From contig NZ_FOAN01000016.1 in NCBI RefSeq assembly GCF_900109525.1, positions 1 through 64,000 of the forward strand: a DNA stretch of 64,000 bases. The letters are read 5' to 3'. The DNA comes from Allobosea lupini. GTDB taxonomy: Bacteria; Pseudomonadota; Alphaproteobacteria; Rhizobiales; Beijerinckiaceae. Below the pieces are notes generated by a model. The model saw only the letters and a program-made list of their open reading frames with translations, was not told the DNA's origin and did no database searches. The position numbers and the translations under genes are program-made. Positions 26,776 to 27,761 of the stretch are shown here, piece by piece (the first letter of the stretch is position 1; each line of letters starts with the position of its first letter).

Positions 26776-26804
26776 TTGACAGCAAGCATGGCGCGCGCTC
26801 TAAG
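26776..26804 (+). promoter_or_regulatory. Candidate promoter of the tyrosine leader transcript
   Basis: A perfect -35 box TTGACA (26776-26781) is followed 17 nt later by TCTAAG (26799-26804), four of six matches to TATAAT. Seven bases after that is A26811, the first base of the leader-peptide ATG. The transcript would therefore be leaderless or nearly so. It begins 10 nt after the carA stop. Confidence 0.6.
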
Positions 26805-26810
26805 CGCGTC

Positions 26811-26861
26811 ATGACCTTTGCCTGCCTGCTCGCCCGCAACTATTACGCCCCGTCCTCATAG
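26811..26861 (+). CDS. Leader peptide with tandem tyrosine codons
   Basis: A 16-residue frame, MTFACLLARNYYAPSS, ends in TAG and lies 90 nt before the prephenate dehydrogenase gene. TAT-TAC at 26841-26846 are the tandem Tyr codons, the end-product amino acid of the pathway. There is no Shine-Dalgarno sequence, but the predicted transcription start falls on the ATG, as known for the leaderless trpL peptide of Sinorhizobium. Stalling at the Tyr codons would cover hairpin strand 1. The peptide is inferred from position, composition and the hairpins, not from homology. Confidence 0.6.
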   Translation: MTFACLLARNYYAPSS

Positions 26862-26904
26862 AGGCGGTGGCATTTTCATGTCTCAACCGCCGCGCTGGCG
26901 GTTG
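26847..26904 (+). promoter_or_regulatory. Attenuator hairpins upstream of prephenate dehydrogenase
   Basis: Four pairing strands are seen. Strand 1 is GCCCCGTCCTC (26847-26857) and strand 2 GAGGCGGTGGC (26861-26871), pairing at 8 of 11 positions around ATA. Strand 2 can instead pair by GGCGGT with ACCGCC in strand 3 (26886-26891). Strand 3, CAACCGCC (26884-26891), forms a perfect 8-bp hairpin with strand 4, GGCGGTTG (26897-26904). This is the classic 1:2, 2:3, 3:4 attenuation layout. No T run follows strand 4 (AAATCAGG), so termination could be Rho-dependent or control could act on stability or translation. Confidence 0.6.
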
Positions 26905-26951
26905 AAATCAGGCAGTCACCCGGCATCGCGGCCCCTCCAGAGGACCACGCG

Positions 26952-27761
26952 ATGCTTTTCCCGAATATCACCACTCCCTCCGTCGGCCTGATGGGCTTTG
27001 GCGCCTTCGGCCGCCTGATCGCCCGCCATCTCCGCCCGCATTGCCATCTGATCGCATTCGATCCAGCGCTGCCGGCCGATGCGGCCGCCGGTGGCATCAT
27101 CGCCGCAGATCCCGCCGAGATCGCCGCCTGCGACATCGTCATCCTCGCCGTGCCAGTCTCGGCCCTCTCGCAGGCGATCGCGACCTTGCGGCCGCATCTG
27201 CGCGCCGGCGCGATCGTCGTCGATGTCGGCTCGGTCAAGATCGGCCCGGCCATGACCATGCTCGCCGAGCTGCCCGAGCACGTCGGGATCGTCGGTACCC
27301 ATCCGCTCTTCGGCCCGCAGAGCGGCCGCAGCGGCATTGCCGGCCTCAAGATCGCGATCTGCCCGATCCGCGGCCGCAGTGCCTGGCGCATCGCCGCCTT
27401 CCTGCGCCGTGTGCTTGGTCTCAAGGTGATCATGACGACGCCGGAGGCGCATGACCGCGAGGCCGCCATGGCCCAGGGCCTGACCCATCTCATCGCCAAA
27501 ATCCTGGTCGCGATGGAGCCGCTGCCGCGGCGCATGACAACCGCGAGCTTCGACCTTTTGATGCGCGCGACCGAGATGGTCCGCCATGACAGCCCGGCCG
27601 TATTCCTCGCCATCGAGCAGGCCAACCCGCATGCACGGCCGGTGCGCGACCGCTTCTTCGCGCTCGCCGAGGAGATGCGGGCGCATCTCGATCGGGATGC
27701 CGCTTCGTCCTTCGACCAGCGGGACGCGGGAGCCCTCTCTTGGAAGGAGAGGGTTGGGTGA
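26952..27761 (+). CDS. Prephenate/arogenate dehydrogenase (TyrA family)
   Basis: 269 residues. The Rossmann motif is GLMGFGAFGRLIARHL (about 12-27). VPVSALSQAI, GAIVVDVGSVK and the conserved GTHPLFGPQSG (near 116) identify the TyrA family; THPLFGP carries the catalytic histidine. It makes 4-hydroxyphenylpyruvate or tyrosine from prephenate or arogenate. AGAGGA precedes the ATG. A Tyr-codon leader and hairpins upstream suggest attenuation by tyrosine supply. The last dozen codons (ALSWKERVG end) are formed by a palindromic repeat, so the original C-terminus may have been replaced. Confidence 0.9.
   Translation: MLFPNITTPSVGLMGFGAFGRLIARHLRPHCHLIAFDPALPADAAAGGIIAADPAEIAACDIVILAVPVSALSQAIATLRPHLRAGAIVVDVGSVKIGPAMTMLAELPEHVGIVGTHPLFGPQSGRSGIAGLKIAICPIRGRSAWRIAAFLRRVLGLKVIMTTPEAHDREAAMAQGLTHLIAKILVAMEPLPRRMTTASFDLLMRATEMVRHDSPAVFLAIEQANPHARPVRDRFFALAEEMRAHLDRDAASSFDQRDAGALSWKERVG

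Follow-up and report, generated by a model that had tools for sequence, protein, structure and literature searches.

The tyrA homologue examined here, which encodes a prephenate dehydrogenase, lies in a 64 000-nucleotide stretch of Allobosea lupini DNA (contig NZ_FOAN01000016.1, positions 1–64 000), hereafter called the window. Its closest matches among solved structures are listed under the name Prephenate dehydrogenase 1 (5t9f; E = 9e-21), and a second, distant tyrA homologue is found elsewhere in the same genome. Upstream of the gene lie a promoter, a short leader open reading frame (ORF) with two consecutive tyrosine codons and a series of complementary RNA strands that extends over the tyrA start codon (Table 1). 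In this study, we compared this region with its counterparts in a sample of 67 Bosea genomes, of which 53 contain a close tyrA orthologue, and with the leaders of other Alphaproteobacteria.

The promoter, leader ORF and RNA strands

Table 1. Features of the tyrA leader region (positions in the window)
Feature	Position	Strand	Sequence or product	Pairing or evidence
Promoter	26776–26804	+	TTGACA (26776–26781), 17-nt spacer, TCTAAG (26799–26804)	Read directly; conserved at 53/53 genus loci
Leader ORF, predicted leaderless	26811–26861	+	MTFACLLARNYYAPSS and stop, 16 codons	Direct read; conservation
Tandem control codons	26841–26846	+	TAT TAC (Tyr-Tyr)	Residues invariant in 28/28 distinct genus peptides
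Strand 1	26847–26857	+	GCCCCGTCCTC	Overlaps codons after YY; pairs with strand 2; folding, covariation
Strand 2	26861–26871	+	GAGGCGGTGGC	Core GGCGGT (26863–26868) pairs with strand 3
Strand 3	26883–26894	+	TCAACCGCC + GCG	TCAACCGCC with strand 4, ACCGCC with strand 2, GCCGCG with strand 5
Strand 4	26892–26905	+	GCGCTGGCGGTTGA	Proposed partner: strand 3 (OFF) or strand 5 (ON)
Strand 5	26916–26932	+	TCACCCGGCATCGCGGC	Proposed partner: strand 6 (OFF) or strand 4 (ON)
Strand 6	26940–26956	+	Shine–Dalgarno GAGGA (26940–26944); start codon region CGCGATGCT (26948–26956)	
tyrA homologue	26952–27761	+	Prephenate dehydrogenase, 269 aa	Pfam PDH_N, 1.3e-17

The promoter, the 16-codon frame and the tandem Tyr codons lie exactly where an initial annotation of the region had placed them. 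Six nucleotides (CGCGTC) separate TCTAAG from the leader ATG at 26811, and the transcript is predicted to start at the A of this ATG, 6 nt past the −10 element. At all 53 genus loci a −10-like hexamer ends 6–7 nt before the ATG, a spacing that fits transcription initiating at the A of that codon, and TTGAC is found at a nearly constant distance from the ATG. A promoter scan returned no site because TCTAAG differs from TATAAT at required positions; the support for the promoter comes from conservation instead. The leader ORF ends in TAG (26859–26861). Searches of the window and the leader region against the Rfam families, including the T-box and the Trp, Phe, His, Leu and Thr leaders, gave no match at the gathering threshold, and the sole match in the region was a chance hit to mir-214 (E = 0.98).

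The 160-nt RNA beginning at the leader ATG folds with −62.6 kcal/mol, compared with −47.1 ± 3.4 kcal/mol for dinucleotide shuffles (z = −4.6), and its minimum-energy fold holds pairings 1:2 and 3:4 and a third hairpin, 5:6. Pairings 1:2 (CCG-t-CCTC/GAGG-CGG), 2:3 (GGCGGT/ACCGCC) and 3:4 (TCAACCGCC/GGCGGTTGA) can each form and are mutually exclusive, with strand 1 overlapping the codons that follow the control codons. All three had been recognized in the initial annotation, which assigned 8 bp to 3:4; this helix is perfect and comprises 9 bp. The earlier list of strands 1–4 was likewise right, but it overlooked 5:6 and the complementarity of strands 4 and 5. In 5:6, GGCATCGCG (26922–26930) pairs with CGCGATGCT, so that the tyrA start codon is paired with CAT of strand 5 and buried. 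The 4:5 complementarity is present in the window and contains three mismatches in Bosea. The first leader codons (26811–26830) are also complementary to the segment that separates strands 4 and 5 (26908–26918), for example as CTGCCTG/CAGGCAG, and other clades have AGCCTGA/TCAGGCT at this place; such a pairing would form only while the leader is untranslated.

Conservation and distribution of the leader

The leader is present at all 53 close tyrA orthologues in the genus, and the genus genomes without a match to the leader model R1 likewise lack a close tyrA orthologue. It is linked to tyrA rather than to carA, since the upstream sequence differs in some genomes. Fourteen genus genomes, mostly small (G008, G009, G018, G031–G034, G036 and G040–G045), lack the tyrA homologue of the window and possess the distant homologue only, an absence which suggests that this tyrA encodes a dispensable, regulated isoenzyme. 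The leader peptide spans 15–17 codons at all 53 loci and contains YY at every one of them, both Tyr positions being retained in each of the 28 distinct peptides, in which each of the nine positions preceding YY accommodates between 3 and 11 different residues. Strand 1 encodes the final residues of the peptide (A-P-S-S or A-L-F-S), which covary with strand 2. Strands 2 and 3 read GGCGG/CCGCC at 48 loci and AGCGG/CCGCT at five. Further downstream, CATCGCGGC of strand 5 is invariant (53/53), and the pairing of the start codon with CAT is present in each of the 32 genus loci aligned. No Tyr leader was found before Bosea's own tyrosyl-tRNA synthetase gene (tyrS) in the 30 loci examined.

Outside Bosea, a covariance model of the leader gave matches in eight further genera of the same family; one match of the family search (L112) was rejected as false. 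A class-wide search with model R2 matched 23 genomes, of which about seven look real; most of the others are chance matches inside genes, and the distribution in the class was therefore judged from tyrA loci. Among 80 named alphaproteobacterial tyrA loci, 71 carry the leader, 61 with YY and ten with a single Tyr at the same place; the nine loci without it belong to Brevundimonas and Caulobacteraceae, Rhodoblastus and some MAGs. Predicted leaderless Tyr leaders precede tyrA homologues in Methylobacterium, Chelatococcus, Hyphomicrobium (peptide MRTNAHLASQYYAPST), Brucella (MIKALINTRSYYAPLI), Thalassospira (MKNVICLFADFYYGPAT), Ruegeria (MQQTRALISTVYYPPLP), Roseomonas (MIRTATLCRYYAPLS) and others. 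The same promoter elements also occur in most of the other genera, at 34–39 nt, and the starts of leader and gene lie 136–166 nt apart, a nearly constant spacing. The Tyr pair is written TATTAC in 67, TATTAT in 13 and TACTAC in five of the named and family loci; since synonymous codons are exchanged, it is the amino acid that is kept. In the one-Tyr leaders, found mainly in Methylobacterium and Methylorubrum (L094, L102, L107, L176, L178, L180, L185, L192, L198, L205 and L215), the residue after Tyr is Ser, Arg or Pro (YS, YR, YP). The first Tyr is the one retained, and one control codon may therefore suffice. A single tyrA leader of genus g32 (L104, genome G317; MTCNIVRHCAPLS) has kept its hairpins and has no Tyr codon; its control has either decayed or passed to other codons.

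The same type of Tyr leader, predicted to be leaderless, is located directly upstream of tyrS in six genomes of this genus, g32, which belongs to the same family (L097, L098, L106, L109, L110 and L111). The peptides are MITGRTSFTNYYTPSP and variants, with the pattern MI[TS]...YYTPSP before the stop codon. A T-rich stretch follows 3:4 in these leaders, and in most of them GGTCTCC is able to form a hairpin with the Shine–Dalgarno region GGAGACC. Three further loci (L227, L228 and L229; genus g100, family f58; approximately 1480–1640 in the match orientation) encode predicted leaderless peptides ending in NAWYFTPLT, a Trp-Tyr-Phe run, followed by a T-rich 3:4 hairpin and by CCTCCGG/CCGGAGG over the Shine–Dalgarno sequence. 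They precede a 151-residue protein resembling a GNAT acetyltransferase, an unexpected gene for an aromatic-amino-acid leader.

Covariation, proposed mechanism and probable regulatory output

The initial annotation had pointed to conserved Tyr codons and compensatory stem changes in relatives as a check on its reading, and both are found. Besides the invariant YY of Bosea, pairings 1:2 and 3:4 together show six pairs and 22 cells changed on both sides in 30 alphaproteobacterial sequences, against shuffle means of 1.9 pairs and 3.6 cells, and none of 500 shuffles was as good. Strand permutation over 34 loci gave z = −7.0 for 5:6 and z = −4.5 for 3:4 (0/20 000 each) and a weak signal for 1:2 (z = −1.9). 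In all these comparisons the loci are phylogenetically related and were counted as independent, so that the counts and p-values are optimistic. Pairing 2:3 gave no permutation signal in the 34 loci because its strands are nearly invariant; its best evidence is one coordinated event, in which five Bosea genomes (the OK403-type clade) combine AGCGG/CCGCT with a different strand 1. By whole-strand energy, 4:5 (z = −1.9) scores no better than the irrelevant combination 1:4 (z = −2.0), while a focused 10-nt test, designed after the pattern had been seen, gave z = 4.6 (0/20 000, 32 loci). Examples of 4:5 are GTCGGCGG/CCGCCGAC in Methylobacterium variabile, GCCAGCGG/CCGCTGGC in Roseococcus and CGCCAG/CTGGCG in Chelatococcus. 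The pairing extends into strand 3, and this extension likewise covaries: it reads GCCGCG/CGCGGC in Bosea and Ruegeria and GCTGCG/CGCAGC in Hyphomicrobium and two further genera, while Thalassospira and some Bosea have intermediates with G-U pairs. At L084, where the start codon is GTG, 5:6 is preserved through a G-U pair. Locus-by-locus shuffling of strand 5 is uninformative in sequence so rich in GC, and 4:5 was sometimes taken for 3:4 by the automatic hairpin finder.

Judged from the sequence comparisons, Tyr-dependent ribosome-mediated attenuation is near-certain. This core of the initial annotation, an attenuator with a predicted leaderless ORF before the prephenate dehydrogenase gene, is borne out by the Tyr codons, the promoter spacing, the covarying stems and the tyrS leader. 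We further infer ribosome stalling, a structural switch and a translational output, and consider it likely that the region is a Tyr-specific attenuator of a tyrA-type prephenate dehydrogenase in which a leaderless mRNA relays the position of the ribosome through hairpins to the ribosome-binding site. The OFF state would consist of 1:2, 3:4 and 5:6 and the ON state of 2:3 and 4:5. Transcription would begin at the leader ATG, and a ribosome would translate ten codons to reach the Tyr pair. With ample Tyr-tRNA it would proceed to the stop codon and cover strand 2, allowing 3:4 and 5:6 to form, joined by 1:2 after ribosome release; the tyrA start codon and Shine–Dalgarno sequence would then be buried and little enzyme made. 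When Tyr-tRNA is low, the ribosome would stall at the control codons and cover strand 1, strand 2 would capture strand 3, and the freed strand 4 would capture strand 5, either ahead of strand 6 or in its place. Formation of 4:5 would expose the tyrA ribosome-binding site and permit synthesis of the enzyme. As in classic attenuators, this relay would depend on folding during transcription.

The principal alternative is classic transcription attenuation, in which 3:4 (26883–26905) would stop the polymerase, alone or with Rho, stalling would lead through 2:3 to read-through, and 5:6 would be secondary. In favour of this reading, strands 1–4 are arranged as in a trp-type attenuator, 3:4 is followed by T6 in Thalassospira and Pseudoruegeria and by a T-rich stretch in the tyrS leaders, and the sequence is compatible with Rho-dependent or weak-U termination. 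In 52 of the 53 Bosea loci, however, the longest T run after 3:4 is at most 3 nt, and a terminator scan of the window found none; these observations lead us to reject an intrinsic terminator at 3:4 in Bosea and confirm the missing T run, which the initial annotation had itself named as a weakness. Termination would also leave the conserved strand 5 and the hairpin over the start codon or Shine–Dalgarno sequence unexplained. The earlier claim of termination as the output in the window is not supported, and termination as the general explanation appears unlikely, though it deserves some weight; in some relatives with T6 it may operate, or act as well. The TTTT that follows 5:6 in the window is not conserved and was set aside.

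Translational control is indicated by the position of 5:6. In leaders of the Bosea, Hyphomicrobium and Thalassospira type this hairpin lies over the start codon, and in those of the Methylobacterium, Chelatococcus and Brucella type over the Shine–Dalgarno sequence (GAGGTC or similar), a placement that is a signature of such control. Over 26 loci, freeing strand 4 changes the computed opening cost of the ribosome-binding site by a mean of −5.4 kcal/mol, versus −2.6 kcal/mol with shuffled strand 4 (Fisher p = 1e-6, the loci being related). In the window taken by itself, the cost drops by 2.6, versus 1.0 for shuffled strand 4, which is not significant (p = 0.21). At equilibrium the opening cost in Bosea is 10.9 kcal/mol with strand 4 free and 13.6 kcal/mol otherwise, the start codon is mostly paired, and adding a stalled ribosome to the equilibrium fold is not in itself enough to open it; therefore, the relay needs co-transcriptional folding, or its effect in Bosea is modest. 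On balance, a translational output of the leader is probable.

Two other readings carry far less weight. The leader peptide or a short RNA might act in trans, as has been suggested for peTrpL and rnTrpL of Sinorhizobium meliloti, with whose trpL the Tyr leader would share leaderless initiation (PMC7298713). Yet the first half of the peptide is free to vary, whereas YY and the stem-coding residues are fixed. This pattern points to constraints on codons and RNA, not to peptide function, and makes a purely trans-acting leader very improbable; an additional trans role could exist beside attenuation. Still harder to sustain is a ligand-binding riboswitch or T-box to which the small ORF is incidental. 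The RNA structure is indeed strong and conserved, but the region contains no Rfam family, and what is conserved is the ORF frame, the tandem Tyr codons with their synonymous exchanges and the predicted leaderless start. Returning to ribosome-mediated control by Tyr, we also favour, with more reserve than for the locus itself, an attenuator spread throughout the Alphaproteobacteria, with a leaderless peptide, a six-strand relay acting on tyrA initiation, a terminator in some lineages and a sister copy at tyrS.

Significance and relation to known systems

Amino-acid attenuators are textbook regulators, and the known examples are mainly transcriptional. The Tyr leader occurs in many alphaproteobacterial families, is predicted to be leaderless and seems to transmit the position of the ribosome to a start codon by way of three hairpins in succession. 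As a compact natural system, it lends itself to studies of co-transcriptional RNA folding, leaderless initiation and the exchange of transcriptional and translational outputs, and it predicts regulation of tyrA by tyrosine in Methylobacterium, Brucella, Ruegeria and others. A survey assigns tyrosine genes to T-boxes, not attenuators, and describes Shine–Dalgarno-sequestering hairpins in actinobacterial ileS T-boxes (PMC1262725). No description of a Tyr attenuator was found in the literature searched or in Rfam, although older comparative surveys may mention one, and a tyrosine-specific attenuator appears undescribed so far in that literature.

Among alphaproteobacterial systems, the uORFC-8-2 motif upstream of cysS in Rhodobacterales has been described as a ribosome-mediated attenuator with tandem Cys codons (PMC8632094). 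It resembles the Tyr leader as an upstream ORF with tandem codons for the amino acid of the downstream gene; it differs in its Cys/cysS specificity, its transcriptional read-through and its restriction to one order, and is not termed leaderless (PMC8632094). A leaderless trpL attenuator is known from S. meliloti (PMC7298713). As in this trpL-trpE(G) system, the Tyr ORF begins at the predicted first base of the transcript and has its end-product codons just before strand 1, and it shares with trp-type attenuators generally the mutually exclusive 1:2, 2:3 and 3:4, with the Tyr codons directly before strand 1 and the stop codon where strand 2 begins. Unlike trpL-trpE(G), it has Tyr rather than Trp codons, precedes tyrA (or tyrS) rather than trpE, lacks a U run after 3:4 in Bosea and possesses two extra strands over the ribosome-binding site.

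The pheA and pheST attenuators of Gammaproteobacteria have Phe codons, ordinary leaders with ribosome-binding sites and U-run terminators. They share aromatic codons in the leader with the present system, and pheST, an aminoacyl-tRNA synthetase target, is comparable to the tyrS leader. In the erm and cat translational attenuators, antibiotic-induced stalling in the leader rearranges hairpins and frees a buried ribosome-binding site, and a ribosome stalled on the Tyr leader would have the same consequence. In contrast to erm and cat, the signal here would be uncharged tRNA-Tyr for a biosynthetic gene rather than an antibiotic, the leader ORF is predicted to be leaderless, and the single swap of erm and cat would be replaced by three OFF hairpins and a relay through 2:3 and then 4:5.
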